Part shown: positions 17,562-35,725 of the stretch, one piece after another | How positions within the stretch are numbered: position 1 is the first letter of the stretch | Layout of the letters: every line of letters begins with the position of its first letter | Source of the DNA: Myxococcales bacterium | GTDB lineage: Bacteria; Myxococcota_A; Polyangia; Fen-1088 | Assembly: GCA_025350815.1 (NCBI GenBank) | Contig: JANXXE010000086.1 | Location: 1-51,194 of the forward strand | Length of the DNA: 51,194 nt | Direction: 5' to 3' | The notes under the pieces: generated by a model | Database searches by the model: none | Told to the model about the DNA's origin: nothing | Seen by the model: the letters and a program-made list of their open reading frames with translations, nothing else | Position numbers and translations under genes: made by a program

Positions 17562-20500
17562 GCATTCGCGTCCTGTCTAACGTTTTGTTTCGGGCACCGT
17601 TGTTGCCGGCGCGCGATCTGCGGCGGGCCGCGGCATCGCTGCTGGGATCGCCGATCGGTCGGTCGGCCCTGGCGCTTGGCAGCCCCGATCTGATGGACAG
17701 CCTGTCGTCGTCGCTTTTGAAGGGCGAGGCGCGCGATGCGGCGGCGCGGGCGCTGTCTCGCTACGGGCGACGGGCGGCGTTCCGACCGACGCCCACGGGC
17801 CTGCTGGCCGGCGTGACGATGGGGACACTGGGGCCGCGCACCCGCATCGCCACCGGCACCCCGGTTCCCCACCTGGTGCCGTCGTGGGGGCGCCTGGCCG
17901 TGTTGTCGCGGGCCTTGGTCGACGAGCCCGCCATTCGTGGGCAGGTGCGGCTGCGGGTGGCGCCGTCGCTGCTGGCGCGTGAATCGTCGGTCATGTGGCT
18001 GGCGCACGATGGAATGGGCGAACTGGTTACGCGGGTCGCCGAACCCGATCCCGCCCTCGGGGCATTGCTGGCGGCCCTGCAGGATTGGTGTCCCTGGGCC
18101 GAGGCGCGGCATGTGCTGCTGGCCGAAGAACAGGATGCCGGCGACGACGACGCCGGCGCTGACGAATACCTCTCAATGCTGGTGGACCAGGGTTTGCTGC
18201 ACGACGATCTGTGTCCGCCGCTGATCTGTGCCTCGCCGCTTTCGTGGATGTGCGCGCGCCTGGCGGCCCTGTCGCCGGACAGGGACGGGATCGTCGCGCA
18301 GGCGCAGGCGGCCTTGGGCGCAACGGCCGAGGCGTGCGCGCGTGGGCATGTGGGCGACGCCGAGAAAGCCCTTTTGCAACTTCCCGAGGGCCCGGCGTCG
18401 CATGACGTTCCCAATTTGCATGGCGTCCTCGTGCACCACTGCGCCCGCCCGCCGCAGCTATCCCGGCCAGCGGTCGAGCGCGCGGCGGCTTTGGCGCCGA
18501 TCCTGTTTCGTCTGCAGCAGGCGCTGTCGCCCCCGGCTGCGGAACGTGCTCTTGGCACGGAACTGCTTGCCCGCCTCGACGGCAATGCGGAAATCTTCGG
18601 CGCGGGCGCCTTTGACCTCGGCAGCCTGGCCGCGGGCGAGTACGGACACGCCATCGGCGAGCTTGACGACCAGCCGTCCACAGAAACAGCGGATGTCCAT
18701 GTCGTGGCGTGGCTTGCCGGCGCGCTGCTGGCGGGTGCGCGTGGGGGCCGGGCGCAAATTGATCTGGATGCCGCGGCGCTGGATGCGCTGCTGCCAGAGA
18801 TCGAGGCACCGCCGAGCTTCGAGTTGGTGTTGTCACCGGCGCGCGAGCCGCCGCGCGCTGCCCCGGGCACCGATTGGTTGCTGGGCCTGCATGCCCCCGC
18901 CGGTGCTAGCCTCGGACGATTCGCAGAGGCGCTGGGCGCCCCGCTGGCGGCCGCGCTTGGTGAGATTGTGGAGGGCGAGGCCGCGGCGCGCCCGGGTGAA
19001 AGCGCCGTCGATGTGGCGTTCGCGGCGTCGTGGGGCCTGGCCGATCTGTGCGTCCACCCGCCCGTTCGCAATCACGCGCTGGCGCTGACCAGCTGGAGCG
19101 ACGGGCCGACGATCCGTCCGGCGGATATGGAGGTGGTGGTGGATCCGGCCGCCGCAGAACCGATTTCGCTGCGCCTGTCCGACGGCGCGCCGCTGCGCCC
19201 AAGTCCCCTGCACCGCGTGCGATCGACGACGGTGCCCGCGGGCTTGCATCGCCTGCTGGCCGGGTGGTCGTTTGCCCGTCAGCACGCGCCGTGGGCGTTG
19301 TCCTGGGGGCCGCTTGGCGCCTGGTCCCGACTGCCGCGCGTGGCGATCGACGGATTTGTGATCGCCCCCGCCAGCTGGCGCATACCGGACAAGGCCAGTC
19401 TCACGCGGCCGGGGTTCCTGGCGCACTGGCGCCGCGACGAGGGGATCCCCGCGGCGATCCAGATCGGTGAGGGCGACGAGTTGCTGTACGTCGATCTGAC
19501 CGTGCCCGGCGCCGCAGCCGACCTGGCCCGTCACGCGGAAGGCCGCGCCTGGGAAATCTGGCCACCGCTTGACCGCACGGTGGATGAAGGCGGCCGTCGC
19601 ATCGAGGCGGTGGTTGTGGCCGTGGACCTCCCCGACGGGGACGCAGGTGAGGCCCGGCACGCGGCTATCCAGGCGATCCGGCGCGCGCGGCCGGTGCCAC
19701 CCCCCTTGCGCCAGCCGCCCGCCGCGGGCTGGATCACGTTCAAGATCTACGGCGCGGCCGAGCGCCAGGATCTGGTGCTGCACGACAGTCTCGCCCCGGC
19801 GCTGCGGGCCGCGCAGACCAAGGGCGCGATCGATGCGTGGTTTTTCGTGCGCTATGTCGAGCCCGGCGACGCCGGCCGTCACCACTTGCGCCTGCGTGTC
19901 CACGGGACATCGGTCCGGCCGACGCTGGCGCTGGCGGATTTCGTGCTCAAGGCGCTGCAGCCGTCGCGGGCCGCAGGTGATGTGGTGGCGGTGGAGGTCG
20001 GCGGCTACCAGCGTGAAACTGCTCGCTACGGCGGGGCGGCGACGATGTTGCTGGTCGAACGCCTGTTCGAGCTGGACAGCGACCTCGTGCTGGCCCTGCT
20101 GGCCGTCGAGGCGGCGTCGACCGAGCCACCGGTCGCGGATCGGCGCGAGTTGCTGGTGCGTTCGTTCGACGCGTTGACCGAAGGCCTGGGGCTGTCGGCG
20201 CAAGCGCGGCTGGAACTGGCCGGCCGGCGCCGGCATGCGTTCGCCTTCAGCGCGGGTGAAGACACCGCGGCACTTTCCGCCGACTACCGGGGCCGCAGCC
20301 GGCGGTTGATGGCGTTGCTTTCTGGCGCGACAGAGTCGGACACACCCGACGAATTCACGGCCGCGCTTAAGGCTTACGGGACGGCCGTGCGCGATCTCAT
20401 CGCGACGAGCGCCGTCGCCCTTCGGGCCGCGGTCACGGATGTCTTGCCGGCCGTCTTGCACATGAACGCCGTCCGCCTGTGCGGGCCGGACGCCGAGGAA

Positions 20501-20575
20501 GAGAGCGCGGCCTTCGTGCTGTGGCAGCGAACGCTGGAAAGCCTGGCCGCGCGCCGCCGTGGAAGGCGTACGTGA
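17558..20575 (+). CDS. full-length lantibiotic dehydratase (LanB)
   Basis: The 1005-residue protein has both LanB halves. The N-terminal glutamylation domain shows FRAPLLPARDL and R76-PTPTGLLAG, matching the R-T/P-PfG motif. The C-terminal elimination domain shows W761-FFVRYVEPG, H775-HLRLRVHG, Y817-QRETARYGG and H968-MNAVRLCG, which match the NisB eliminase residues. Known LanBs use glutamyl-tRNA to dehydrate Ser/Thr in a precursor peptide. No LanC, transporter, protease or convincing precursor is seen nearby. It is coupled to the GT-C gene by a 4-base overlap. Catalytic motifs look intact, so it is probably active; substrate unknown. Confidence 0.92.
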   Translation: MSIRVLSNVLFRAPLLPARDLRRAAASLLGSPIGRSALALGSPDLMDSLSSSLLKGEARDAAARALSRYGRRAAFRPTPTGLLAGVTMGTLGPRTRIATGTPVPHLVPSWGRLAVLSRALVDEPAIRGQVRLRVAPSLLARESSVMWLAHDGMGELVTRVAEPDPALGALLAALQDWCPWAEARHVLLAEEQDAGDDDAGADEYLSMLVDQGLLHDDLCPPLICASPLSWMCARLAALSPDRDGIVAQAQAALGATAEACARGHVGDAEKALLQLPEGPASHDVPNLHGVLVHHCARPPQLSRPAVERAAALAPILFRLQQALSPPAAERALGTELLARLDGNAEIFGAGAFDLGSLAAGEYGHAIGELDDQPSTETADVHVVAWLAGALLAGARGGRAQIDLDAAALDALLPEIEAPPSFELVLSPAREPPRAAPGTDWLLGLHAPAGASLGRFAEALGAPLAAALGEIVEGEAAARPGESAVDVAFAASWGLADLCVHPPVRNHALALTSWSDGPTIRPADMEVVVDPAAAEPISLRLSDGAPLRPSPLHRVRSTTVPAGLHRLLAGWSFARQHAPWALSWGPLGAWSRLPRVAIDGFVIAPASWRIPDKASLTRPGFLAHWRRDEGIPAAIQIGEGDELLYVDLTVPGAAADLARHAEGRAWEIWPPLDRTVDEGGRRIEAVVVAVDLPDGDAGEARHAAIQAIRRARPVPPPLRQPPAAGWITFKIYGAAERQDLVLHDSLAPALRAAQTKGAIDAWFFVRYVEPGDAGRHHLRLRVHGTSVRPTLALADFVLKALQPSRAAGDVVAVEVGGYQRETARYGGAATMLLVERLFELDSDLVLALLAVEAASTEPPVADRRELLVRSFDALTEGLGLSAQARLELAGRRRHAFAFSAGEDTAALSADYRGRSRRLMALLSGATESDTPDEFTAALKAYGTAVRDLIATSAVALRAAVTDVLPAVLHMNAVRLCGPDAEEESAAFVLWQRTLESLAARRRGRRT

Positions 20576-22809: not shown

Positions 22810-23726
22810 CCGACAGCGGCTCGCCCCCACCCCGTCGAGCGAAGCTGGCGCTCGCGCTTGCCGCCGTCTATCTCATCTGGGGCTCTACCTACCTTGCCAT
22901 TCGCTGGATGGTCGCCGATGTCCCGTCCTTCGTCGGTGGCGGGATTCGCTATGGCACGGCGGGCATCGCCTTCTACGTCATCGGCCGAACCTTCGGGGGC
23001 CAGCCGGCCACGCGGGCCGAGCTGCGCAATGTGGCCATTGTCGGGTTTTGCTTTCTCGGCGTGTCGAACGGGCTGGTCGGTCTCGCCTCGCGTCGGCTGC
23101 CGTCGTCGCTGACCGCGCTCATTCTCGCCGTCATGCCGCTGTGGGTGGCATTGTTGCAGGCGCTGCGGCCCCGGGGCGTCAAGCCGTCCTCGCAAGCGAC
23201 CGTTGGACTTGTGGCGGGCTTTATCGGAACCGGCATTCTCGTGTGGCGCACTGGTGGCTCCCAGGCCGCCGTGGATCGGGCGGGCGTCCTCATGTTGACG
23301 CTCGCGGCGCTGGTTTGGGCGGCCGCCTCGCTGTTTGCCCAGAACGCCGCGCGCCCGAAAAGCTGGCCCGTCTCGGCAGGTCTCGAGATGATGATTGGCG
23401 GTGGCGCGCAACTGCTGTTCGCTGCCACGCGCGGCGATTTCGCGCGGGTCATCGCGTCGCCGCCGGGCTCTCGTGCCGTGTGGGCCCTCGCGTATCTCAT
23501 CGTCATCGGCTCGTTTGGCTACGGCGCATTTTCCTGGCTGGTCCGCAACGCCTCGCCGGCCCTGGCCGCCACCTACGGCTACGTCAACCCGCTGGTGGCC
23601 GTCACCCTGGGCGCGTTGCTGGGGGGCGAGGCTCTCGGTCCGCGCATCTTTCTGGGCGGCTCTGTGATCGTGGCGTCGGTTTTTCTGGTCAGCACGGCCC
23701 GCCCGCGCGCCGTTCAGTCGTCCTGA
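22806..23726 (+). CDS. EamA/DMT-family transporter, YedA-like
   Basis: The 306-residue protein shows ten transmembrane segments in two EamA repeats. The opening AAVYLIWGSTYLAIRWMV and the RLPSSLTALILAVMPLWVALL segment are typical of the YedA/RhaT branch of drug/metabolite transporters. The GTG start overlaps the YqaB-like stop by four bases. The last 13 bases overlap the convergent Na/Pi transporter gene. It probably exports a small metabolite across the inner membrane. Confidence 0.92.
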   Translation: MTDSGSPPPRRAKLALALAAVYLIWGSTYLAIRWMVADVPSFVGGGIRYGTAGIAFYVIGRTFGGQPATRAELRNVAIVGFCFLGVSNGLVGLASRRLPSSLTALILAVMPLWVALLQALRPRGVKPSSQATVGLVAGFIGTGILVWRTGGSQAAVDRAGVLMLTLAALVWAAASLFAQNAARPKSWPVSAGLEMMIGGGAQLLFAATRGDFARVIASPPGSRAVWALAYLIVIGSFGYGAFSWLVRNASPALAATYGYVNPLVAVTLGALLGGEALGPRIFLGGSVIVASVFLVSTARPRAVQSS

Positions 23727-25780
23727 TCGATATCGGCGGCCAGCGCCTCGGACAGGCGGTACACGTGATTGCCGACGCTTTCGTAGGCATTCACCAGATC
23801 GGTCGCGCCCAGCCGGTAGGCGATCGCGTCGCCGTTCTGCCCGTCGGGCCCCTCTTTGAGCAGCGCGTGGCGCGCTTCGGATTCCATCGCGTTCAGGCGG
23901 ATTTCGCGGCTGCGGGCCTCTTCGATGTCGGGCGCGTCCCCCGTTTCGAGAAACCGGACCAGCGCCAAAATGCCTTCCAGCAGAAGATCGTGCAGCGCCT
24001 TGACGGTGGCCTCATCGCGTTCGGGCATCTGCCACGCTTCCCCCGCTGGCACAAGCGCCATGCGTTTCTCGGTGCCGCGGTCCACGTGCCGCAACAGATC
24101 TTCAAGCGATCGCTGCAACTGCACCACCGATACCGCCGCCTGGCGCAATTTGGCCAGGCCCGCCTCTTCCGATTTCGTGCGGATCGCGCCGGCGAACAAC
24201 GCCTCGATCTCACCCCGGGTATCGGCCAGCGTGTGTTCGCTTCGCCGGCCACTGTCCCGGTGACCTGTCAGACACAGATCGCGAATGCCGACCAGCGCCG
24301 TCCGGTGATTCTGCAGCACGCGCGCCAGGCCCGCCCTCAGGGCGTCGATGCCGGTCTGTCCCGAAAGTGCCGGAGGAATCGTCACCGCCCGCCGGGGCGC
24401 CAGACTTTGCAGCAACTTGGTGGTGGGCGGCAGCAGTGCGGCCAGCAAGACCGTGACCGCCAGCTGTGACAGTGCGAAAGCCGCGAACAGGTGCGTGCCG
24501 ATGTTCGACGGCACCTTCGGCTGTACCGGCAGCAAGGTGTTGGCAGCCGTCGCCCACAGCCCGACGGTTGCGGCCAGAAACACCGTCCCGACCAGCGCCA
24601 GCGCGATGTGCGTGCGGGCCATGCGCCGCGCGTCCACCCCGAAGGGCCACGCCACGACGATGGTGGCCAGCGCCGCACCCAGCCCCGTGCCGGCCAGAAT
24701 GGCGAGCGCGCCCTGTACGTCGATGCGGCCACTGGCCTGCGCCACGCTGAGTACAAGGACGTAGACCGGCGCCGGCCCTTGCAGCGCCAGCGCCAACACG
24801 ACACCCAGCGCCGCACACGCCATCAATCCCAGAACGTTATCGGCGCGCAGGTGGTCGAGATAAGGAACCATCTCGGGATCGGTTACCAGGGGCTGCAAGC
24901 CGTCGCGCAGCATGTACAGGCCGTAGAACAGCAAGCCGCACCCGAGGACAATCTTGCCGAGGGATTCGCTGCGTCGGTCGATCGCCAGGGTCAACCAGAT
25001 GACCCCGATGCCGACCACCAGCAGACCTTCCCTGGTCGAGGCCAGTACCATCGCCGACGGGGCAACCGCCGCCCCGAGCTGCGCGCCCAGCAAAACCGCG
25101 ACACCGGGAATCACGGCCAGCAGATGCGATTCGACCAGACCGACGACCAATCCGGCGGCCGTGGTGGTGAACTGCGTGATGCCCCCCACCAGCACCCCGA
25201 GGGCAACGGCGGCCGGCGTCCGTCGACCGATGCGTGTCAGGAAGGACCGACTGCGCTGGCCCGTGTAGGATCGGCTGCCGCCCGACATCGTTCTTAGACC
25301 GAAGACCAGCAGCGCCAGGCCCCCTATGACCGTGCGCAGTTGCTTGCGCCGGTCGAGCGGCTTGATGCGTAAATCGTAGGGCTTGCTGCGCTTGTCGTCG
25401 TCGGCGCCCTGTTGTACGCGGATCTTGTTTCGACCTGGTTTAACTGTCTTGGGGATGCGAATCGTCAGGCGGTCGCCGCGCTGCTGAATGACGGGCGCTT
25501 CTTCCTTGCCGCTGAGGAACGCCCTGACCGGTGCCCGATTGGACGGATCCGCGCCCAAGAAATGGATTTCGACTGCGCTGCCGGGCGTGGGCTCACCGGG
25601 GGCGATCTCTAGAATCTCAAGTTTGCCGTCCGTTGTCACGGGCGTCGGCGATGCAGCGGGCGGGATGGCGCCGCCCTCGTCGTCGTCTCCACCGACCAGC
25701 AGGTACGCCGCGACCAAAGCAACGGACAGCCCCCACGCCAGCGTCGGTCGCCAGCGTCGATTCTGGCGGCGTTCAGCCAT
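23714..25780 (-). CDS. Na/Pi cotransporter family protein with N-terminal IPT-like and C-terminal PhoU-like domains
   Basis: The 688-residue protein has an N-terminal transmembrane anchor (about 15-35), an extracytoplasmic IPT/TIG-like beta domain (about 50-140), then two NptA-type repeats with GGITQFTTTAAG, GAQLGAAVAPSA, LQGPAPVYVL and GTGLGAALATIVVA. The C-terminal 200 residues are helical and PhoU-like. It should move phosphate across the inner membrane. The start overlaps the VTC gene by 8 bases and it is the last gene of the five-gene phosphate operon. The extra N-terminal beta domain is unusual for the family. Confidence 0.88.
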   Translation of the reverse strand: MAERRQNRRWRPTLAWGLSVALVAAYLLVGGDDDEGGAIPPAASPTPVTTDGKLEILEIAPGEPTPGSAVEIHFLGADPSNRAPVRAFLSGKEEAPVIQQRGDRLTIRIPKTVKPGRNKIRVQQGADDDKRSKPYDLRIKPLDRRKQLRTVIGGLALLVFGLRTMSGGSRSYTGQRSRSFLTRIGRRTPAAVALGVLVGGITQFTTTAAGLVVGLVESHLLAVIPGVAVLLGAQLGAAVAPSAMVLASTREGLLVVGIGVIWLTLAIDRRSESLGKIVLGCGLLFYGLYMLRDGLQPLVTDPEMVPYLDHLRADNVLGLMACAALGVVLALALQGPAPVYVLVLSVAQASGRIDVQGALAILAGTGLGAALATIVVAWPFGVDARRMARTHIALALVGTVFLAATVGLWATAANTLLPVQPKVPSNIGTHLFAAFALSQLAVTVLLAALLPPTTKLLQSLAPRRAVTIPPALSGQTGIDALRAGLARVLQNHRTALVGIRDLCLTGHRDSGRRSEHTLADTRGEIEALFAGAIRTKSEEAGLAKLRQAAVSVVQLQRSLEDLLRHVDRGTEKRMALVPAGEAWQMPERDEATVKALHDLLLEGILALVRFLETGDAPDIEEARSREIRLNAMESEARHALLKEGPDGQNGDAIAYRLGATDLVNAYESVGNHVYRLSEALAADIDQDD

Positions 25781-26642
25781 GGACAGCCCGCGAGGCTTGC
25801 TCGAACTTGCTGAAAGTGTTTCGCACAGCCCCGATCTGCAACAGCAGGTCCGCAAGCCACGGCGGCGTCGCGGCGCGGGTCTTCACCTCCAGGATGGCGC
25901 CCGGTGCAGCGCCTCGGGGCGGCCCCAGGGTCTCGCGTAGCAACGCGTGGTTGCGCTGCCACAGATCGACGGGCGGCGCATAAAATTCGATGCCCACATC
26001 CAGGGTGACGCGCAGGCTGCCGTCCTGGTCCTGCCAGGGCAGGCGCCGGTAGTTCACCAGACAGTCGGCCCGCAGCGGTTCGTCGTAGCGCCCGCAATAG
26101 GCGGCGATTTCGCGCAGGACCGCCTCGCCATCCAGACCGTACAGCGGACGCTGAATGTCGATCATCTCGGGCGTGACGAGCCCCGTGGCGAAGAAGGCCG
26201 GAACGTCGCGCTTCGGAATGCCGATGCGCCGCTTGCCGGTCTTTGCGCCGTCCCGAAACTTCAGTTCTAGCCACAGCACGGGTTGAAAGCGAACCATCTG
26301 CATGGGATTGGTCGCAAGCTCAGCCAGCGACGGGTGTAGATCGTAGTATTCCTTCGCGCGCATCTTCAGGTTGTGCTGGGCGTCGCTGACGCTGGCCTGG
26401 TACTGGTGCCGCGAGGCCGTGTCGAAATAGATGGTGGTCACGAAGTGCCGGGGCCGCGGCAGCTTGTTGGCGCCATCGCCCGTGAATCGGTGGTGCGGCA
26501 GGTGCTCGGACATGGCGGCCGCGAACAACGGGACCTTGTCGGACGCGACCGTATACTTCGCCTCATCGCGTTCCGAGGTCATCCGGTCATCGGCATCCCC
26601 GGCGGCCTGGGCCGCACCCCCACCGGGGCGCTGCGCGGTCAT
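25773..26642 (-). CDS. VTC-domain polyphosphate polymerase-like protein
   Basis: The 289-residue protein matches the VTC catalytic tunnel fold: E27-AKY near the start, YFDT (72-75), K93-MRAKEYY, LELK (125-128), basic K137-RR, Y198-RR, a D215 strand, ILEVK (250-254) and a closing FSKFEQA. In yeast Vtc4 this fold makes polyphosphate from ATP; bacterial forms are less studied. No SPX domain or transmembrane segment is present, so it is probably cytoplasmic. It overlaps the Na/Pi transporter downstream (8 bases) and the lipoprotein upstream (4 bases), supporting a phosphate/polyphosphate role. Confidence 0.9.
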   Translation of the reverse strand: MTAQRPGGGAAQAAGDADDRMTSERDEAKYTVASDKVPLFAAAMSEHLPHHRFTGDGANKLPRPRHFVTTIYFDTASRHQYQASVSDAQHNLKMRAKEYYDLHPSLAELATNPMQMVRFQPVLWLELKFRDGAKTGKRRIGIPKRDVPAFFATGLVTPEMIDIQRPLYGLDGEAVLREIAAYCGRYDEPLRADCLVNYRRLPWQDQDGSLRVTLDVGIEFYAPPVDLWQRNHALLRETLGPPRGAAPGAILEVKTRAATPPWLADLLLQIGAVRNTFSKFEQASRAVHG

Positions 26643-27433
26643 TTGATCGTGAATGCGGTCAGCTCTTCCTTCTGACCGCCGACCTCCAGAACCTTACCGA
26701 CGCCGCGCGCGTACCAGAAGGCCTTGGTCGTGGCCGTGCCGGCTGCGCCCAGGCTGTGGCTGACCTTGATGCACTTGAAGGTACCGGCCGGCACGGTGAC
26801 CGATTCGTCGACGGCCAAGACCTGCCAAGACTGGACCTGCGTCGTGGATTTGACGGCGGCGGCGCCCAGCTGAATGAATTCCTTGTAGGTCTCGGTCCAC
26901 TTGGCGTTCAGCACGGTGTGCGCGGCGCTTTCGTCGAACTTCGTGCGGTAAGGCTCCCACCAGTCGTTTTCGGTCACGACGTCGGTACCCGACTTGAAGG
27001 ATCGCTCGTACATATTGCCGATCACGATTCCGCCCGCGTTGGGCAGCTCGATGGCCTCCAACCAACCGACGGTCTTGTCGGCCTTGTCTTTCATTGTGGT
27101 GTGGCGATACGCCATGTGCGCAGCGTTGGCGCCCCCCGGGACCAGTTCCTTGGCATCGATGGTGATCACCTTGGTGGAGACGCCTTTGATCGGATCGGTG
27201 ACCTTGTAGGTCCAGGAGCTGCCAATGGTCAGGGGGTAGTAGGGCCCGCTCAATATGGCCGCGTCCGTTGGCATGGCCGCGTCCGTTGACGGAACGTTGG
27301 CGGGTGTGGTCCCTCCGCTGGCGCCCCCGCCACAGCCGGCGATTGCGACAAGCAATCCCACTGCGAAGCCGGTTGCCCCCATGCCCGTCCGCCGCCTGCA
27401 AGTCCTGCCGTCGACGAGTGCCCGTGTTGCCAT
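26639..27433 (-). CDS. lipoprotein of the phosphate operon, unknown function
   Basis: The 264-residue protein has a long signal peptide with lipobox AIAGC followed by a Gly/Ser/Thr linker. The mature part contains YYPLTIGSSWTYKV, a motif common in secreted all-beta lipoproteins, and ends GQKEELTAFTIK. A duplicated 18-base unit encodes the AAMPTDAA segment of the linker. It sits between the kinase-like and VTC genes (gap 6, overlap 4), so it belongs to the same transcript. It may act in the periplasm or on the outer membrane; no enzyme motif seen. Confidence 0.78.
   Translation of the reverse strand: MATRALVDGRTCRRRTGMGATGFAVGLLVAIAGCGGGASGGTTPANVPSTDAAMPTDAAILSGPYYPLTIGSSWTYKVTDPIKGVSTKVITIDAKELVPGGANAAHMAYRHTTMKDKADKTVGWLEAIELPNAGGIVIGNMYERSFKSGTDVVTENDWWEPYRTKFDESAAHTVLNAKWTETYKEFIQLGAAAVKSTTQVQSWQVLAVDESVTVPAGTFKCIKVSHSLGAAGTATTKAFWYARGVGKVLEVGGQKEELTAFTIK
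27255..27290. repeat. 18-bp tandem duplication inside the lipoprotein gene
   Basis: The unit at 27255-27272 is repeated at 27273-27290 with one mismatch. Being a multiple of three it keeps the frame and duplicates a short linker segment after the lipobox. It is a plausible slippage site. Confidence 0.8.
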
Positions 27434-27439
27434 GACCTT

Positions 27440-29146
27440 CTATCTTATACCAACATCGCCCCCCTCGGGGTTCAGGTTGGCGCCTAACGCAATTGCCGAG
27501 GCGTGCTTGAGTACCGAGATGTTTTCGGGATAACGCCGCAACTGGCGCTCGACCAGCTTGCGCCCGCGCTCGCTCGCCGCCAACGGACCCAGGCTCTTGA
27601 CCACCGTGGATGGCCACAGGTCCGCGTATTGTTCGCGCAGCCGCCAGGCGCGGCTGCCGTCGAGTCCGATGATCGAGTTGACGACTTCTTTGCAAATCTC
27701 CACCATCTTTTCGCGCATCTGCCACGCCCGCGCGTCGTCGGATTCGGTGATGGTCTCGAACACCGCCTTGGGCGCCCGTTCGAGGTAACGTTCGCGCCAC
27801 TTCCAGCTTCGATCGCTGGTCATCCCCACCAACGAGGCGATCACAGACACGGGGGCGTACTCGCGGGCGACTTTTCGCAGCTCCCACGCGCGGTCGTCGT
27901 CCAGCATCGCGATCGACTTGCACAGTACCCGGGCGTTCAGGTACTCCGCGATCCGCGGTCCCAGCCCGGCCAGCCACGTCTCCCGCATCTGCCAGGCGCG
28001 CGCCGAAGGGATCGTCGACACCGACGCCACCACGACATCTCCGTGGTCCGCGGACAGGCGCTCCCGCAGTTCCCAGGCTTCGTCGGTGTCGGCGGTGTCC
28101 AGCGAGTTCATGACCTCGACCGGCACCACGGTCACCAGGGCCTTGCGCAGCGCCACGGCTTGCGGGTCCAGGCGGGCCAGGCCCGACAGCGATCGCGCCA
28201 CCCGGACCGGCACCTGCGTCGACAGGGTTTGGCGCAGCTGCCAGCTTGCGGCATCCGTCAGACCTGAAATGCCCGTGGCGATGACGTCGGGGGACTTGTT
28301 GGCGTATGCGCGGCGCCGCTCATCGACGCTGGGTCCAAATAGACCGCTTAGCAGGTAGGCCGCGACGTGGGGCTCGCGCTCGGCGCGCCGGTCAACCATT
28401 TCCAGGAAGGCGCGCAGGGCGTGCGCGGGCTCGGACAGCGTCGATGTCGTTCGGTGTGGCGCCGTGATTTCGTCACGACGCAGGCGTTCGATCGCGGGAC
28501 CGGCCCCGGCGCGCGCGACGTCCTGTAGTAGTTGGAACACCCGTTCGACGGTGGCGTCCAGATTCTGATCGTTGTCGATGATGACCCAGCGTGCGGGATC
28601 GCGCGCGGCGATTTCGCGATAGCCCGCGCGAAAGCGTTGCTGCATGCCGACCCCCGACAGGCCCTTGCGCGAAGGTGGCCGATTGTCCGGGGCCAAGATC
28701 TTGGCCACCCGACGGCGCGCGCGCGCGATATGTGGATCGATGTCGATGAGGACGACGATGTCGGGCACCAGGCCGCCGGCCGCCGCGTCCAGAACGGGGC
28801 GTACGTACGCTTCTGGAAGGCCTCGACCAAACCGACCCAGAACCTCCGCGCTGTAAAGAAATCGATCAGCGATCACGACGTCCGACTTGCCCAGGGCCGG
28901 CCGGGTCATTTCGTCCAGCAACTGCACGTCGCGTGTGACGTAAAGAAAGAATTCGGCGTGCGGCGTCAGATCAAGATTGCGCGCGTCGCGGCCGAACTCG
29001 CGTATCGCCTGCGTGACGGGCGAGGCGAACTTGCCCCCTTCACGCAGATGTTCGACCGACAAGCCTGTCTCGCGCAGCCTGTGCGCCACCCGGTTCGACA
29101 CGGTTGTCTTGCCGCTGCCATCGATGCCTTCGAATACGACGAACAT
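27440..29146 (-). CDS. thymidylate-kinase-like P-loop kinase fused to a C-terminal ~27-residue repeat array
   Basis: Residues 1-215 form a Tmk-type kinase: FEGIDGSGKTT P-loop, LREGGKF in place of TREPGG, D94-RFLYS and VLIDIDPHIARARRR. The TMP-contact stretch that reads S-x-x-AYQ in standard Tmk reads SAEVLG here, so the substrate may differ from dTMP. Residues about 290-540 hold some nine repeats with [AS]W-x-[LMK]R near 302, 358, 385, 421, 448, 475 and 501, mostly 27 apart, predicted helical and HEAT-like. The gene overlaps the porin stop by one base and precedes the lipoprotein by 6 bases. A standard Tmk has about 210 residues. Confidence 0.85.
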   Translation of the reverse strand: MFVVFEGIDGSGKTTVSNRVAHRLRETGLSVEHLREGGKFASPVTQAIREFGRDARNLDLTPHAEFFLYVTRDVQLLDEMTRPALGKSDVVIADRFLYSAEVLGRFGRGLPEAYVRPVLDAAAGGLVPDIVVLIDIDPHIARARRRVAKILAPDNRPPSRKGLSGVGMQQRFRAGYREIAARDPARWVIIDNDQNLDATVERVFQLLQDVARAGAGPAIERLRRDEITAPHRTTSTLSEPAHALRAFLEMVDRRAEREPHVAAYLLSGLFGPSVDERRRAYANKSPDVIATGISGLTDAASWQLRQTLSTQVPVRVARSLSGLARLDPQAVALRKALVTVVPVEVMNSLDTADTDEAWELRERLSADHGDVVVASVSTIPSARAWQMRETWLAGLGPRIAEYLNARVLCKSIAMLDDDRAWELRKVAREYAPVSVIASLVGMTSDRSWKWRERYLERAPKAVFETITESDDARAWQMREKMVEICKEVVNSIIGLDGSRAWRLREQYADLWPSTVVKSLGPLAASERGRKLVERQLRRYPENISVLKHASAIALGANLNPEGGDVGIR

Positions 29147-30264
29147 TAGAATGCCGCTCCCGCTTGAAGGACCACTGCCTTGTGGTCGGTGATTGTGGTG
29201 TCTCCCGCGAACAACTGCGAAAGGATTCCGCTTGGCCGCTGGGCCAACTCGACCTGCAGGGTCAGACGGGCCCGTCGCCAGTAGCCGACGTTGACGCCCA
29301 CAAAACCTTCGGTGACGACGTCATCCGGATTCCCCGTGTCGGCATCAAGCGCGCCCAGGGTCACGAAGGGTTCAACGTAAACCTGCCCCGCCGACAGACC
29401 GCCGTGCCGCCAGGCGACGATGGCCCGCGCCGTTGCGAACGTGGCGTCGTAGCGGCGGTCGAAATCGGGGCCGTACCACGACGATCCGGCCATGCCTTCA
29501 GCCCAGACGCGCAGCCCGTGGGTCGCGAAGGGCAGGTCCAGTTTCATGTCGCCCCCGAATAACCAGAAGTGCGCGATGGCGCCAAGAATCTTGGCGGTCC
29601 GGCGTTCGACAAAGCCCGCCAGCCGGACGGGTCCGGGTGTCACCGAGATACGAATGGCGGTGTTCTGGCTGTCGGTCGATTCCCCCTTGAGGTAGGCGCC
29701 GCCCATCTCGGGGTTGGAGGCCTGAAAGGCACCGATGGTCACGGCGGGATCCAGTTTCCCGCCGCCGCGCACCTGTGCGATCGCCCCGGGCCGTCGCCCG
29801 GCCACCGCGAGGCGGTTCAGCAGCAGGTCATGCAGCACCCCTCGATTGGCCATGGGCAGCGTCCAGGCCGATTCCATCTCGATGATCGAGATCGGCATCT
29901 TGAACTGACCGAAGCGCGCCACAAAGTGCCGGCTTTCGGCCTCGGCGTAGACATCGTTCGCGCGGGGCTTGCCCGCCAGTTCGAGCTCCAGTGTCAGGGC
30001 CAGCCAGCTCATCGCCTGGTAGTCGACGCCCAGACGCGCGCTGGCCAGTGCCAGGTCGACGGCCTGGTGTGGCGCCGAAGCGGTGCCATCGATCGGTTCA
30101 GATTCGTCGCTGACGTACCCAGCCTGCGCGAACAGGCGCCCATGGATGGTCAGGGGGGATTCCGGCGCGTCGTCGGCCCCGGCGAAACGGGTCCCCAGCG
30201 GCGACGTCAGGACCGCGGAGCACAGCACGCATCGTCGAAGGGAACGTCGAAGGGAACGTCGCAT
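29146..30264 (-). CDS. phosphate-selective porin (OprO/OprP)-like outer-membrane protein
   Basis: The 372-residue protein starts with a basic signal sequence and continues with porin-like alternating strands: LTIHGRLFAQAGYVSD, RLGVDYQAMSWLALTLELEL, VARFGQFKMPIS, and VLHDLLLNRLAVAGRRPGA, ending in a terminal Phe (AGAAF). The GQFKMPIS and following segment fit the OprO/OprP family. The ATG at 30264 is selected; a longer frame begins at 30312. It is the first gene of the phosphate operon, with its stop sharing one base with the kinase start. Specificity for phosphate or polyphosphate is inferred from family and context. Confidence 0.8.
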   Translation of the reverse strand: MRRSLRRSLRRCVLCSAVLTSPLGTRFAGADDAPESPLTIHGRLFAQAGYVSDESEPIDGTASAPHQAVDLALASARLGVDYQAMSWLALTLELELAGKPRANDVYAEAESRHFVARFGQFKMPISIIEMESAWTLPMANRGVLHDLLLNRLAVAGRRPGAIAQVRGGGKLDPAVTIGAFQASNPEMGGAYLKGESTDSQNTAIRISVTPGPVRLAGFVERRTAKILGAIAHFWLFGGDMKLDLPFATHGLRVWAEGMAGSSWYGPDFDRRYDATFATARAIVAWRHGGLSAGQVYVEPFVTLGALDADTGNPDDVVTEGFVGVNVGYWRRARLTLQVELAQRPSGILSQLFAGDTTITDHKAVVLQAGAAF

Positions 30265-30323
30265 CTGTTTTCCGGGTGGGGCGTCGCTGACGCAGGCGCC
30301 TTTCCGCGCCACCGCATGCTACA

Positions 30324-30358
30324 CGCAGCAAGCGCGAACCGGCAAGGCGCTTGCTGCG
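30324..30358. repeat. perfect 12-bp inverted repeat between the phosphate and molybdenum operons
   Basis: CGCAGCAAGCGC (30324-30335) and GCGCTTGCTGCG (30347-30358) are exact reverse complements with an 11-base loop. It lies in the 154-base gap between the divergent porin and MocA-like genes, 60 bases from the porin start. Neither side has a T-tract. It may be an operator or an mRNA leader hairpin. Confidence 0.7.
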
Positions 30359-30418
30359 CGCTTGCGGTGTCTTGGCCGGTCCCTTGTCGGCCTCCAACAG
30401 CGCTGCCATGATCTGTTC

Positions 30419-31036
30419 GTGGTTCCAGCGGTGGTTCCCGTTATTCTGGCGGCCGGGGCGTCGTCGCGCATGGGGCGCCCGAAGGCGTTGCTTGATTTCG
30501 ACGGCCGTTGCAGCCTGGAACTTGTGCTGGCGGCGTGCCGGGTCGCTGGGCTTGGGCCACCGGTGATTGTCGTGAGTCCGTCTTGCCACGCGCTGATGGA
30601 AAGGGTCGCGTCCGCCGGGATCGTGGCCAGTATCGTGGTCAACGACCACCCCGAACGGGGTCAGACGTCGTCGCTGCAAACCGGGCTGCGGCACCTGCCA
30701 CCGGCGGACGCTTTCCTGATCTTCCCCGTCGACTACGTGCTGGTCGAATCCGTCGACGTCAGCGCCGTGATCGATGCGTTTTGCCGGCCCGGGCCGCGGC
30801 GCCCCCCCATCGTCATTCCGTCGTGGCGCAACCGACGTGGCCATCCCGTGCTGGTGGATTTGGCGCTGCGGGCGGAATTTCTCGCGCTAACACAAGGCGC
30901 ATCGGCCCGCACAGTTATCGACGCCCACGCGGCCGAAATCGCGTACGTGCAGGCCTCCTGCGACAGTGTGCTCCAGGACATGGACACGCCCGGGGACTAC
31001 CGGTGCTGCCTGGATCGCTTGCGGCAACGGGGCTAA
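30419..31036 (+). CDS. mocA: MobA/MocA-like nucleotidyltransferase (probable molybdenum cofactor cytidylyltransferase)
   Basis: The protein (about 205 residues) opens PVILAAGASSRMGRPKALL, the nucleotide-binding loop of MobA-like transferases, and continues with HPERGQTSSLQTGL, FPVDYVLVE, RRGHPVLVD and DMDTPGDY, as in MocA. MocA adds CMP to molybdopterin for xanthine-dehydrogenase-family enzymes. XdhC and three subunits of such an enzyme lie directly downstream, supporting this role. The start is uncertain: GTG at 30419 or 30431. Confidence 0.85.
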   Translation: MVPAVVPVILAAGASSRMGRPKALLDFDGRCSLELVLAACRVAGLGPPVIVVSPSCHALMERVASAGIVASIVVNDHPERGQTSSLQTGLRHLPPADAFLIFPVDYVLVESVDVSAVIDAFCRPGPRRPPIVIPSWRNRRGHPVLVDLALRAEFLALTQGASARTVIDAHAAEIAYVQASCDSVLQDMDTPGDYRCCLDRLRQRG

Positions 31037-31048
31037 GCTGCCGGCGCG

Positions 31049-31915
31049 ATGGAGGTCTCGCGCAAGGTCATGCGTCGCGCGTCCGAACTGCTGGACGATG
31101 GCGTGTGTTTTGCCTTGTGCACGGTCGTGGGCGCGCGCGGCAGCGTTCCCGGCAAATCCGGGGCGAAGATGATCGTGCTGCCGGACGGCTCGCAGTTCGG
31201 CACGGTCGGCGGCGCGGGGCTGGAAGAAAAAACCAAGGCCCTTGGCCGTCAGTGCCTGGTCGATCGCAGGGGCGGCACGTTCAAATTCGATCTGGCCCAT
31301 CACCGCCCGGGCGCTCTCGATAGCCTGTGCGGCGGTTCGGTGGAGATCTTGGTGGAATATATGGGTGCTGTTCCGCATGTCCTGATTTGCGGCGGCGGTC
31401 ACGTGGGTCTCGAGGTTGCGCGCCTGTGCGAGCAACTCGAATATATCCATTCGGTTTTGGATGACCGCCCGGAATTTTCGGCGCGCACGCGGTTCCCCGG
31501 GGCCCGGCATTTGTTCACGGCGCGGCCCGAGGATTTCTTCCCCGCCAACGATCTGCGCGCCTATTCGCACGTCATCGTGGTGGGCTATTCGCACCGGGTC
31601 GACACCGAGGCCCTGTTCCACTGCGTGCAGGGTTGCCGTGGCTACATTGGCCTCATGTGCAGCCGGCTCAAGCGCCACGAAATGTTCGAGCGCCTGCGCG
31701 CCCGCGGCGTCACGGATGCCGACCTTGCGCGCGTGGAAGCGCCGGTCGGCGCGATGATCGGCGCCGAGACGCCAGCGGAAATCGCAGTTTCGATCCTCGG
31801 GGGCATCATCCGGCACCACAAAGGGGTCGCGGCCGAAAATCAGGGAGATCACATCGATGGCCAGCAAGACAAAATCCAAGACATCAAGCCGTTCCGGCAG
31901 CGCCAAGGCAGTTAG
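31049..31915 (+). CDS. XdhC/CoxI-family molybdenum-cofactor insertion protein
   Basis: The 288-residue protein has the XdhC N-terminal motif ALCTVVGARGSVPGKSGAKM, GTVGGAGLE, and a Rossmann-like C-terminal domain beginning VLICGGGHVGLEVARL, then HVIVVGYSHRVD and YIGLMCSRLK. This family (XdhC, PaoD in E. coli) binds the molybdenum cofactor and sulfurates and inserts it into the enzyme. The last 59 bases overlap the start of the FeS-subunit gene in another frame. A 12-base gap to the MocA-like gene supports one operon. Confidence 0.93.
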   Translation: MEVSRKVMRRASELLDDGVCFALCTVVGARGSVPGKSGAKMIVLPDGSQFGTVGGAGLEEKTKALGRQCLVDRRGGTFKFDLAHHRPGALDSLCGGSVEILVEYMGAVPHVLICGGGHVGLEVARLCEQLEYIHSVLDDRPEFSARTRFPGARHLFTARPEDFFPANDLRAYSHVIVVGYSHRVDTEALFHCVQGCRGYIGLMCSRLKRHEMFERLRARGVTDADLARVEAPVGAMIGAETPAEIAVSILGGIIRHHKGVAAENQGDHIDGQQDKIQDIKPFRQRQGS

Positions 31916-32504
31916 TCGCAAGGGCCCGACGGGCCTTAGCCGGCGCGGCTTCATGCAAGGGGTCGGCGTCGCCGGCGGCGTGGCCCTGGTCGCGACGGAA
32001 GATGCACGGGCGGCAGCCGCACCGAAGACGCGCGGGCCCAAACGCGCGCCCGTCACGCTGAACGTGAACGGCAAGGATCGCACGGTGACCATCGAACCAC
32101 GGGTCACCTTGTTGCGGGCGCTGCGCAACCACATGGATCTGACCGGTGCGAAAGAGGGCTGCGATCGCGGCGGGTGCGGCGCCTGCAGTGTGCAGGTCGA
32201 CGGCGCGCTGGTGGCGTCGTGCATGATGCTGGCCGTGGATGCCGTCGGCAAGAAGGTGCTGACCATCGAGGGCCTGGCCAAGGGCGACCAGCTGCACCCG
32301 ATTCAAGAAGCGTTCGTGAAGCACGATGCCCTGCAATGCGGGTTCTGCACGCCCGGCATGGTCATGGCGTGCAAGGCGCTGCTTGACGGCAACAAGAATC
32401 CCACGCTGGCGCAGATCAAGAAGGGGCTGTCCGGCAACATCTGCCGCTGCGGCACGTACACCCGCATCTTCGCCGCCGTCGACACCGCGGCCAAACAGGT
32501 CTGA
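31857..32504 (+). CDS. yagT: Tat-exported 2Fe-2S subunit of xanthine dehydrogenase-family enzyme (YagT/PaoA-like)
   Basis: The 215-residue protein starts with a twin-arginine signal (SRRGFMQG, then a hydrophobic core). The N-terminal ferredoxin cluster motif is GCDRGGCGACSVQVDGALVASC; the second, helical cluster shows QCGFCTPGM and ICRCGTY. The Tat signal on this subunit is a mark of the periplasmic PaoABC/YagTSR type. It shares 59 bases with xdhC. Electrons pass from the Mo site through its two clusters to FAD. Confidence 0.94.
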   Translation: MASKTKSKTSSRSGSAKAVSRKGPTGLSRRGFMQGVGVAGGVALVATEDARAAAAPKTRGPKRAPVTLNVNGKDRTVTIEPRVTLLRALRNHMDLTGAKEGCDRGGCGACSVQVDGALVASCMMLAVDAVGKKVLTIEGLAKGDQLHPIQEAFVKHDALQCGFCTPGMVMACKALLDGNKNPTLAQIKKGLSGNICRCGTYTRIFAAVDTAAKQV

Positions 32505-32515
32505 GGAGAACGCCC

Positions 32516-34738
32516 ATGCCCAAGATCAAGACCAAGGTCGGGTTTCGCGGTCACACCAAGGACATCGACGTCGACATTCCGGAAGGCGAGCCGGCGCCCT
32601 GGGGCGCGGACGCACAGCTCAAGCACGTGGGCACGGACATCCCGCGCATCGACGGTGTCCTCAAGGTCAGCGGGCGCGCCAAATACACCTACGATCAACA
32701 CCCGCCCGGCATGCTGTGGGCCAAGATGCTGCACTCGCCCTGGGGCGCGGCCGCCATCAAGTCGCTGGATGTCGACGCGGCGCGGGCCGCAGCGGGCGTC
32801 AAGGGTGTCTATCTGTTCAAGGACAAGGGCCGTCCGTTACGCTACCACGGCGACGAGATCCTGGCGATTGCAGCCGAAAGCGAGGAAGAGGCCGAGGACG
32901 CCTTGCTGGCGGTGAAGATCGAGTACGACCGCAAGCCCGTGGTGACCACCGTCGAGGCCGCGTTGTTGCCCGGTGCCGCACTGGTGTTCGAGGGCGAGCA
33001 GAATCTGAAGCCCGACAAACCCGCCGGTGACAAGGACAAGGTCGCCGCCGCCATCGCCAAGGCCGACAAGATCGTGCAGGCCACGTACACCACGCAGGTG
33101 CAGACGCATTCGTCGCTGGAAACGCACGGCGCGCTGGCGATGTTCGGCAAGGATGGCACCCTGACGGTCTATTGCAGCACGCAGGCCACCTTCAACGTGA
33201 AGGGCGAGGCCGTGCATGCCTCGGGCCTGACCGACGACAAGGTGCGTGTGCTGGCCGAGATGGTCGGCGGCGGTTTCGGCAGCAAGATGTCGCTGGCGCC
33301 GTCGGGCAAAGCGGCGATTGAGCTGGCCAAGCAAACCAAACGTCCGGTGAAATTGATGCTGTCGCGCGAGGGCGAACATCTGACCGGCGGCAACCGGCCG
33401 TCGTCGGTCCAGTCGATGAAGGCGGGCGTGGCCAAGGACGGCAAGATCCTGGGCTTCATGCTGGAAAGCCACGGCTCGGGCGGCGTCACCGGTGGGGCCG
33501 GCGTGGCCAACCCGGTCATTTACCAGGTCGGCGAAAAGCACAAGAGCGGCGGATCTGTTTACACAAACGCTGGCCCCGCGGCCGCCATGCGCGCGCCCGG
33601 GCACCCGCAGGGGATCTTCGCGCTCGACAGTTTTCTCGACGAGTTGGCGCACGCCATCGGCATGGATCCGCTGGAGCTGCGTCGCAAGAACACCGAGGAC
33701 GAGGTGTATCTGGCGCAGTGGGAGCTGGGCGCGGCGAAAATCGGCTGGAAGGAACGCCGTAACAAAATCCCGGGCGCAGGCGCGGGGACGGTCAAGCGGG
33801 GCATCGGCATGGCGTCGTCGCTGTGGCGGCAGATGGGGGGCCCCGGGACCGAGGTCGACGTCGTCATCCACAGGGACGGCACGGTCGAGGCCAAGAACGG
33901 CGCGCAGGACATCGGAACCGGCACGCGCACCTTGATGGCGACCATCGTCGCGGAGGAGCTGGGCCTGTCGCCGTCGCAGATCAAGATCTCGCTGGGCGAC
34001 ACGCGCTGGCCAATCGGGCCGGCCTCGGGCGGGTCAAAGACGGCGCCGTCGATTGGGCCGGCCGCGCGTACGGGCGCCTACCAGGCCAAGCTGAAGCTGC
34101 TGGCGCTGGCGTCCGCCAGGCTGAAGGTGCCCGTCGCTGACCTGCGAATGGAGGGCGGTCTGGTTGCGGGCCGCGGGCAGCGGTTGACCTTCGCCGAGGC
34201 GTGCGCGCTTATCGACAAGAAGGACGGGGCACTGACGGTGCGGGGCGTGCGGGCCAAGAATTACGACGCCTACACGACGACCTCCCACGGCTGCATGTTT
34301 GCCGAGGTCGAGGTCGACACGGAATCCGGTGCCGTGCGCCCCATCAAGCTGGTCACGGTGCAGGACGCCGGCCGCATCATCGACAAGCTGCTGTTCGAAA
34401 GTCAGATGATAGGCGGCGCCATTCAGGGGATCTCCTACACGCTGCACGAACAACGCCTGCTGGATCCGCACTACGGCGTGCAAATGAACGCGGACATGTC
34501 GACCTACAAGATTGCAGGTCCGATGGAGATGCCCGAGATCGTGCCCATCGCGTTCGACGTGTCCAACGCCGGTAACAACTGCGGAATGATGGGCGTCGGC
34601 GAGCCGCCCAATATCCCGACGGCCGCCGCCATCGGCAACGCCATCTTCAACGCCACCGGGGCGCGCGTGCGATCCCTGCCCATAACGCCGGACCGTATGC
34701 TGGCCGCGCTTGGCGCCCGCCCCAGCAGGAGGATCTAA
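32516..34738 (+). CDS. yagR: molybdopterin-binding catalytic subunit, xanthine dehydrogenase family (YagR/PaoC-like)
   Basis: The 740-residue large subunit shows VGTDIPRIDGVLKVSGRAKYTYD at the start, MVGGGFGSKM, MRAPGHPQGIFALDSFLDELA, ELRRKN, AQDIGTGTRTLMA and the C-terminal MMGVGEPPNIPTAAAIGNA with the conserved catalytic Glu. This is the Mo-binding part that oxidises aldehydes or purines. It lacks fused FeS/FAD domains, which are separate genes here. Spacing is 11 bases from the FeS gene. Substrate unresolved; aldehyde oxidation is the most likely by similarity to PaoC. Confidence 0.94.
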   Translation: MPKIKTKVGFRGHTKDIDVDIPEGEPAPWGADAQLKHVGTDIPRIDGVLKVSGRAKYTYDQHPPGMLWAKMLHSPWGAAAIKSLDVDAARAAAGVKGVYLFKDKGRPLRYHGDEILAIAAESEEEAEDALLAVKIEYDRKPVVTTVEAALLPGAALVFEGEQNLKPDKPAGDKDKVAAAIAKADKIVQATYTTQVQTHSSLETHGALAMFGKDGTLTVYCSTQATFNVKGEAVHASGLTDDKVRVLAEMVGGGFGSKMSLAPSGKAAIELAKQTKRPVKLMLSREGEHLTGGNRPSSVQSMKAGVAKDGKILGFMLESHGSGGVTGGAGVANPVIYQVGEKHKSGGSVYTNAGPAAAMRAPGHPQGIFALDSFLDELAHAIGMDPLELRRKNTEDEVYLAQWELGAAKIGWKERRNKIPGAGAGTVKRGIGMASSLWRQMGGPGTEVDVVIHRDGTVEAKNGAQDIGTGTRTLMATIVAEELGLSPSQIKISLGDTRWPIGPASGGSKTAPSIGPAARTGAYQAKLKLLALASARLKVPVADLRMEGGLVAGRGQRLTFAEACALIDKKDGALTVRGVRAKNYDAYTTTSHGCMFAEVEVDTESGAVRPIKLVTVQDAGRIIDKLLFESQMIGGAIQGISYTLHEQRLLDPHYGVQMNADMSTYKIAGPMEMPEIVPIAFDVSNAGNNCGMMGVGEPPNIPTAAAIGNAIFNATGARVRSLPITPDRMLAALGARPSRRI

Positions 34739-34741
34739 GTC

Positions 34742-35725
34742 ATGCGCAATTTCAGCTACGTCATGCCGCAGACCATCGAGGCCGCATCGATCGCGGCGGC
34801 CCAGAAGAACAGTGTTCTCAAGGCCGGCGGGATCGATTTGCTGGATTTAATGAAAGGCGATCTGGTCCGGCCCGACCATCTGGTGAACCTTCTATCCGTC
34901 GGCAGTCCGGCGTTGCGCGAGGTAGCGGTCAAGGACGACGGGTTGCACATCGGTGCCCTGGTGACGCTGGCGCAGCTGGCGGCCAGTTCCACCGTTCCGT
35001 CGGTGCTGGCGCATGCGGCATCCGTGGCGGCCACGCCGCAGATTCGCAACGTGGCAACGGTCGGGGGCAACATCGCCCAGCGCCCGCGTTGCTGGTACTT
35101 CCGCAGCGCCACCTTCAACTGCGCGCGCAAGGGCGGTAACACCTGCTTTGCGCAGGAAGGCGACAACCGCTACCACGCGCTGTTCGACAACGGCGACTGC
35201 GCGGTCGTGCAGGCGTCCAGCACGGCGTCGCCCCTGGTGGCACTGGGCGCGACGGTGGTCACCAACAGACGCCGGATTGCGGCTGGTGAATTCTTCGTGC
35301 CGACGTCCGTCGACATCACGAAAGAACACGTGCTGGGCGAAGGGGAAATCATTAGCGAGATTTTCATCCCCGCATCCGCCCGCGCCCTGAAGGCCGCCTA
35401 CCGCGAGGCGGGCGAACGCGAATCCAACGACTGGGCTCTGGTGTCAGCGACGGTGGCACTGGATTTCGACGGCGCACTTGTGAAGACCGCGCGGGTCGTA
35501 CTGGGCGCTGTGGCGGCGGTGCCGTATCGGGTGATTTCGGTCGAGGAGGCCTTGCGGGGCAAACCCATCACAGCCGCAAACGCAGCACGCGCGGCCGAAG
35601 GCGCTTTCGCAAAGGCGAAACCCTTCGCGTTGAACACCTACAAGGTGTCGCTGGGCAAGACCATCCTCAAGCGCGCCATTCTTGCGGCCGCGGGTCAGCC
35701 CGAACTTTCAACGGCGGGAGGTTAG
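34742..35725 (+). CDS. yagS: FAD-binding subunit, xanthine dehydrogenase family (YagS/PaoB-like)
   Basis: The 327-residue subunit has LKAGGIDLLDLMKGD (FAD site), IGALVTLAQLA, ATPQIRNVATVGGNIAQR and, like PaoB, an inserted cysteine segment (RPRCWYF, FNCARKGGNTC, NGDC) with four Cys that can hold an extra 4Fe-4S cluster. It overlaps nothing but starts three bases after the Mo subunit stop. FAD passes electrons to a final acceptor. Gene order FeS-Mo-FAD differs from E. coli paoABC. Confidence 0.93.
   Translation: MRNFSYVMPQTIEAASIAAAQKNSVLKAGGIDLLDLMKGDLVRPDHLVNLLSVGSPALREVAVKDDGLHIGALVTLAQLAASSTVPSVLAHAASVAATPQIRNVATVGGNIAQRPRCWYFRSATFNCARKGGNTCFAQEGDNRYHALFDNGDCAVVQASSTASPLVALGATVVTNRRRIAAGEFFVPTSVDITKEHVLGEGEIISEIFIPASARALKAAYREAGERESNDWALVSATVALDFDGALVKTARVVLGAVAAVPYRVISVEEALRGKPITAANAARAAEGAFAKAKPFALNTYKVSLGKTILKRAILAAAGQPELSTAGG

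Follow-up and report, generated by a model that had tools for sequence, protein, structure and literature searches.

A five-gene operon and its proteins

The stretch of DNA analysed here (51,194 nucleotides from a draft genome of the Myxococcales, hereafter the window) carries five minus-strand genes at 23714-30264, which encode a porin, a thymidylate kinase (Tmk)-like kinase with a repeat domain, a lipoprotein, a VTC polyphosphate (polyP) polymerase and a Na/Pi-type membrane protein (NaPi). From the 5' end of the operon, the features are:

30265..30430, no strand: presumed promoter region separating the operon from the divergent gene at 30431, assigned by position only
29146..30264, minus strand: porin of the outer membrane, phosphate-selective O/P type (Porin_O_P), 372 aa when read from ATG, assigned from its relatives' PF07396 matches
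27440..29146, minus strand: Tmk-derived P-loop kinase (residues 1-~210) with alpha-solenoid (~240-555) (PF02223, E=2.3e-22; AlphaFold2)
26639..27433, minus strand: lipoprotein, DUF3108-like (PF21347, E=3.5e-7)
25773..26642, minus strand: VTC-type (TTM) polyphosphate polymerase, soluble (PF09359, E=2.3e-22)
23714..25780, minus strand: Na/Pi-cotransporter-type membrane protein (PF02690, E=4.9e-21; NF037997)

The porin and kinase genes overlap by 1 base (TAATG), the kinase and lipoprotein genes are separated by 6, and the lipoprotein/VTC and VTC/NaPi junctions are overlaps of 4 (ATGA) and 8 bases (ATGGCTGA). Junctions of +1, -6, +4 and +8 (overlap positive) had been claimed in a first-pass annotation of this DNA, and the stops, starts and strand agree exactly. 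Third-codon-position GC is 0.79-0.83 in each of the five genes. A convergent EamA gene overlaps the NaPi stop on the 3' side and the divergent gene at 30431 lies on the 5' side, so the operon is limited to these five genes. Given the tight junctions and the order kept in relatives, the earlier proposal of one transcript with coupled translation is supported: this is a single conserved, probably co-translated operon. Elsewhere in the window, the divergent genes at 30431-35725 appear to form a molybdenum hydroxylase set (MobA-like, XdhC-like, and iron-sulfur, molybdenum and FAD subunits), and 17558-20575 encodes a 1005-aa protein resembling a LanB-type lantibiotic dehydratase, both being impressions from sequence.

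The porin has a signal-peptide-like ATG start, with an alternative upstream GTG possible at 30312. Its identity follows from that of its cluster relatives, since Porin_O_P (PF07396) is matched by 9 of the 12 aligned cluster porins (best E=1.9e-11). The window porin itself has no Pfam match. A porin recurs beside the kinase gene in 13 of the 19 genomes that carry the kinase. The lipoprotein has the lipobox IAGC, and its Cys34 is invariant in an alignment of 11 relatives.

The claim of a VTC polymerase is supported, with a PF09359 score of 80.2 bits (cut-off 23) and intact tunnel residues. The Vtc4 tunnel residues (K, RxR/K, ExK, KxR, YxR, RxTxD, ExK, SKF) are conserved in the cluster VTCs, the first Lys being Arg in some divergent members of the DUF4956 type. 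A profile built from 14 cluster VTCs finds yeast Vtc4 (3G3Q) at E=1e-19, with basic and acidic tunnel residues aligned; the profile was needed for this match, and a single VTC sequence found nothing in the PDB. The TTM polymerase domain and its tunnel residues are thus shared with the yeast VTC complex (Vtc4, PF09359; 3G3Q, 7YTJ), whereas the bacterial VTC, soluble and encoded separately, has neither an SPX domain nor a transmembrane domain of its own (hydropathy shows no transmembrane helix in the window protein), and the bacterial set has a likely membrane partner, NaPi or DUF4956, plus the kinase. Yeast VTC couples polyP synthesis to a transmembrane channel (PMC9911596); since it pushes polyP across a membrane, a separate membrane partner would by analogy be expected for a soluble VTC. 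The source genome holds three VTC copies. Those outside the operon (G000:C203, locus L041; G000:C121, locus L042) are 72-79% identical to the operon VTC and lie near CotH kinase genes, directly adjacent in L041, and their sequences suggest recent duplication and partner exchange.

NaPi scores 60.4 bits against the Na/Pi symporter model NF037997 (cut-off 50) and has about 7 hydrophobic segments by hydropathy. It consists of an N-terminal transmembrane anchor, a segment of ~100 residues, a PF02690 core and PhoU-like C-terminal helices. Of its earlier description as a Na/Pi-PhoU protein, the PF02690 core is confirmed, but the PhoU match in the window protein is sub-threshold (E=0.06). The core and PhoU-like tail are common to the Na/Pi cotransporter family (NF037997, SLC34-like); the N-terminal anchored extra segment and a changed second motif set NaPi apart. 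The family has two QSSS Pi-binding motifs. Motif 1 is retained as TQFTTTA, a Q-x-T/S-T variant, and at motif 2 QSSS is lost: five of six members have QGP[AG]P there (QGPAP in the window) and the sixth has QGAGV. DUF4956, which has 2-3 hydrophobic segments in a simple hydropathy scan, takes the place of NaPi in some clusters; the two were never seen in one operon or cluster, and clusters with either have one such membrane partner each. DUF4956 is a membrane protein that accompanies bacterial VTC in other bacteria (PMC7112168).

These features bear on the envelope uptake-to-storage pathway that had been suggested for the operon, in which the porin would admit Pi, NaPi import it, VTC store it as polyP and the kinase supply nucleotide. 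The Porin_O_P relatives and the PF02690 core agree with such a pathway, as do the PhoBR-like, Pst and PiT surroundings of two related clusters (L034, L035). The loss of the second Pi-binding motif and the exchange of NaPi for DUF4956, no known transporter, go against it, as does the sub-threshold PhoU match, and we consider it unlikely. Alternatively, the main function may be polyP synthesis coupled to translocation from the cytosol, placing polyP in the periplasm or at the surface; NaPi or DUF4956 would be the channel and the porin and lipoprotein the envelope part, by analogy with the yeast VTC complex filling the vacuole. A window VTC without a transmembrane helix, the single membrane partner per NaPi or DUF4956 cluster, the membrane channel tied to synthesis in yeast (PMC9911596) and the CotH-VTC-DUF4956 sets accompanying surface polysaccharide loci of Gram-positives (PMC7112168) favour this; the predicted cytosolic location of the kinase counts against it. 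As the main function it seems to us rather improbable, and it overlaps the polyP-module reading preferred below. Since the second QSSS is lost, DUF4956 can be swapped in and a soluble VTC would need a membrane partner if it works like yeast VTC, polyP translocation or export is no less plausible than Pi uptake.

A Tmk-like kinase with a rebuilt pocket

The window kinase scores above the cut-off of the NCBIfam dTMP kinase model. A confident AlphaFold2 model was obtained (pLDDT 92.3, pTM 0.90), in which residues 1-~210 have the Tmk fold (TM 0.89 to 4edh by fold comparison), and the top matches of a viral fold search with the kinase were dTMP/deoxynucleotide kinases only. The C-terminus is an alpha-solenoid whose repeats, each a pair of helices, have a period of 27 residues and carry the motif D-x-x-R-A-W-x-L-R-E. 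No Pfam family convincingly covers the solenoid of any of the 18 members, and no PDB chain matched it at E<=0.001.

The 18 fusion kinases were compared residue by residue with 24 ordinary Tmks from related genomes. K13 (the P-loop Lys), D94 and R95 (the DR motif) and R144 are kept in 18/18. The Phe, Arg and Tyr-Gln positions of Tmk, which contact thymine, are conserved in 24/24 ordinary enzymes; among the fusion kinases Phe has become Tyr in 16/18, the base-binding Arg is Asp or Glu in all 18, and of the Tyr-Gln pair Tyr is mostly Leu and Gln is mostly Gly or Ala, otherwise Ser or Cys. The lid is also longer, with R160-K161-x-L163-x-G165 (RKxLxG) invariant in the 18 members, and the lid stretch has an average net charge of +8.7, compared with +1.0 in ordinary Tmks. 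Fold, P-loop and DR motif are therefore common to the fusion kinase and dTMP kinase (Tmk, PF02223, TIGR00041), which differ in the dTMP contacts, the long basic lid and the C-terminal solenoid. With the thymine contacts replaced, a basic RKxLxG lid and a solenoid added, an ordinary thymidylate kinase was rejected as an identity for this protein. A separate, normal tmk is present in the genome beside the fusion kinase.

As judged from these residues, the fusion kinase is probably an active enzyme whose acceptor is not dTMP but something more anionic, which accords with the earlier description of a modified kinase of unclear substrate; the rebuilt pocket is found in 18 members. By one account, PPK2 and the thymidylate kinases go back to a common P-loop ancestor and PPK2 grips polyP via Lys and Arg residues of its lid (PMC8776046), which makes polyP the leading candidate substrate of the fusion kinase. 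The likeness to PPK2 (PF03976), at the sequence level, lies in a Tmk-related P-loop kinase with a Lys/Arg-rich lid and a link to polyP; the differences are the solenoid and the Tmk-type motifs. PF03976 was matched by only 1 of the 18 kinases (E=0.005), the window kinase giving no match, and the proteins score as Tmk-type, so the fusion kinase is not a PPK2 by sequence.

The kinase might instead be a nucleoside-monophosphate kinase of altered base specificity that recycles AMP/ADP, or modifies an unrelated nucleotide, as the energy supply of the operon. It retains the Tmk fold and the phosphoryl-transfer residues, but the basic lid and invariant RKxLxG are unlike the ordinary Tmks compared, and the gene is associated with VTC, not with nucleotide metabolism; we regard such a role as a minor possibility.

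Two further observations concern these sequences. The ordinary dTMP kinases of this Myxococcota class (L043:394-1005 and 23 others) have the P-loop GSGTTT/GAGTTT, with Lys replaced by Thr in 23/24 of those sampled, unlike the fusion kinase, which keeps the P-loop Lys. The kinase gene of genome G011 (L037:9659-11350) is frameshifted near residue 396-407, by sequencing error or decay.

Distribution, gene order and partner exchange

A protein search of 59 relatives found orthologues of the fusion kinase, full-length or split, in six, with a separate ordinary tmk in most of the 59. A profile of the C-terminal part of the kinase matched in 9 of 379 Myxococcota genomes. Beyond the Myxococcota, the distribution is based on a pattern scan of 84,980 species (kinase alignment from residue 36), which returned 13 loci, 12 of them in Myxococcota; the single Ignavibacteria match (L072), at 26% identity and in the Tmk part only, was not counted as a member. 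With each genome counted once there are 19 carriers, all Myxococcota, including cultured Archangium and Corallococcus.

The five-gene order of the window, POR-KIN-LIP-VTC-NaPi (POR, porin; KIN, kinase; LIP, lipoprotein), is found again in two further families of the class (L056, L057) whose kinases are 54% and 31% identical to that of the window. Related orders occur in further genomes: POR-KIN-VTC-NaPi (L059), VTC-NaPi-KIN (L034, L035), CotH-VTC-POR-KIN-DUF4956 in Archangium violaceum (L061) and two Corallococcus (L064, L068), VTC-KIN-DUF4956-LIP (L037, L069), POR-VTC-KIN-DUF4956 (L070, and L039 with LIP following), POR-KIN-DUF4956-LIP (L060) and KIN-POR-LIP (L036). POR-KIN-LIP spans a contig break in L038/L040 and is accompanied by a divergent DUF4956 gene in L058, where LIP-VTC-NaPi lies on another contig of the same genome (L075). 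VTC is within the kinase cluster in 13 of 19 carrier genomes, contig ends cutting some of the others, and on a different contig from the kinase in G025, G057 and G386. Genes lying far apart in relatives, which had been set beforehand as the outcome that would speak against the operon, were not seen in most carriers.

Chance gene grouping, or general envelope-stress co-regulation, might be read from the differing orders and the members missing in some genomes. The same five-gene order at 31% kinase identity, the repeated re-association on the trees and the Fisher p=9e-6 described below speak against it; we consider it very improbable, and chance grouping was rejected as contradicted by the conserved order.

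Two kinds of neighbour were observed near some clusters. The VTC-NaPi-KIN genes in L034:5579-20000 and L035:5606-19901 sit in a phosphate/arsenic island, in which an ArsD match was tested in L034 and the ArsA-, Acr3-, PiT-, DUF47-, PhoB/PhoR- and PstS/PstC-like genes were named from their sequence starts and by similarity. A protein of ~560-627 aa, one half of which is PPDK_N (ATP-binding dikinase), precedes the kinase in L036:4429-6312, L062:5950-7830 and L063:881-2563 (Kofleriaceae-type), and is a possible further phosphotransferase partner of the kinase.

Across the 379 Myxococcota genomes, VTC is present in 9/9 kinase carriers and 173/370 others (Fisher p=0.0012), and within the class of the window in 9/9 carriers and 23/96 others (Fisher p=9e-6); PPK1 is missing from 5/9 carriers and 13/96 others of the class (p=0.007). 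The tests treat genomes as independent, which overstates their significance. Of the 11 carriers surveyed, five have PPK1 as well, so the system does not simply stand in for PPK1. Neither PPK1 nor PPK2 was found in the source draft genome or in five other kinase carriers, and gaps in metagenome-assembled genomes may explain some of these absences. The NaPi/DUF4956 label changes at least four times on the kinase tree, one of the four hinging on G386, which has both partners at separate loci, and once on the VTC tree; the kinase has therefore joined different VTC modules. To judge from the two trees, the VTC type and its membrane partner travel together and the kinase moves between them.

A candidate polyphosphate module

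Taken at the level of sequence, the gene set suggests a so far undescribed way for bacteria to make or use polyP. The components (VTC, Tmk, Na/Pi and CotH-VTC-DUF4956 sets, the last in PMC7112168) are each already known separately. The bacterial accessory set of CotH, polyphosphate polymerase and DUF4956, which for example adjoins Gram-positive pel genes (PMC7112168), likewise places VTC and a membrane protein in one operon, and CotH and DUF4956 share the cluster with the kinase in Archangium and Corallococcus. The kinase clusters add the Tmk-solenoid kinase, porin and lipoprotein, and the window operon lacks CotH and has NaPi in place of DUF4956. The first-pass annotation knew of no described system of this composition, and we found no Tmk-VTC system, Tmk-solenoid fusion or five-gene set in the literature searched, which was mostly open-access, so that novelty is provisional.

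Our preferred reading, which we give roughly even chances of being correct, is a conserved accessory polyP module of Myxococcota whose kinase acts on polyP or on the nucleotide of VTC. We infer polyP as the kinase substrate, and likewise the membrane coupling and the direction of transport. The cytosolic VTC/TTM polymerase would make polyP from ATP beside an inner-membrane partner, the NaPi-type protein with PhoU-like helices here and DUF4956 in sister clusters. The solenoid may hold the kinase to VTC or to the membrane protein, and the kinase would move phosphoryl groups between nucleotide and polyP, as PPK2 does, or regenerate the nucleotide used by VTC. The porin and lipoprotein would serve phosphate or short polyphosphate at the outer membrane and in the periplasm. 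The PiT-, PhoBR-, Pst-like and ars genes beside two clusters support a polyP module, whereas the Tmk-type rather than PPK2 score counts against a polyP kinase. More speculatively, the Tmk-solenoid proteins could be a further polyP kinase family, derived from Tmk separately from PPK2, that serves as a dedicated VTC partner exchangeable between NaPi and DUF4956 modules and gives PPK-less myxobacteria a polyP metabolism of their own; we think this possible, though more probably wrong than right.

The role of bacterial VTC is hardly studied, and where these proteins turn up in the open literature searched, they mostly stand beside CotH and DUF4956 and are uncharacterised. In the gene set described here, VTC shares an operon with phosphate-type transport proteins and has an enzyme partner that can be tested, in myxobacteria that can be cultured. 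Should the kinase prove to act on polyP, Tmk would have given rise to a second P-loop lineage of polyP kinases, and polyP may still be made and used in genomes that lack detectable PPK1 or PPK2.
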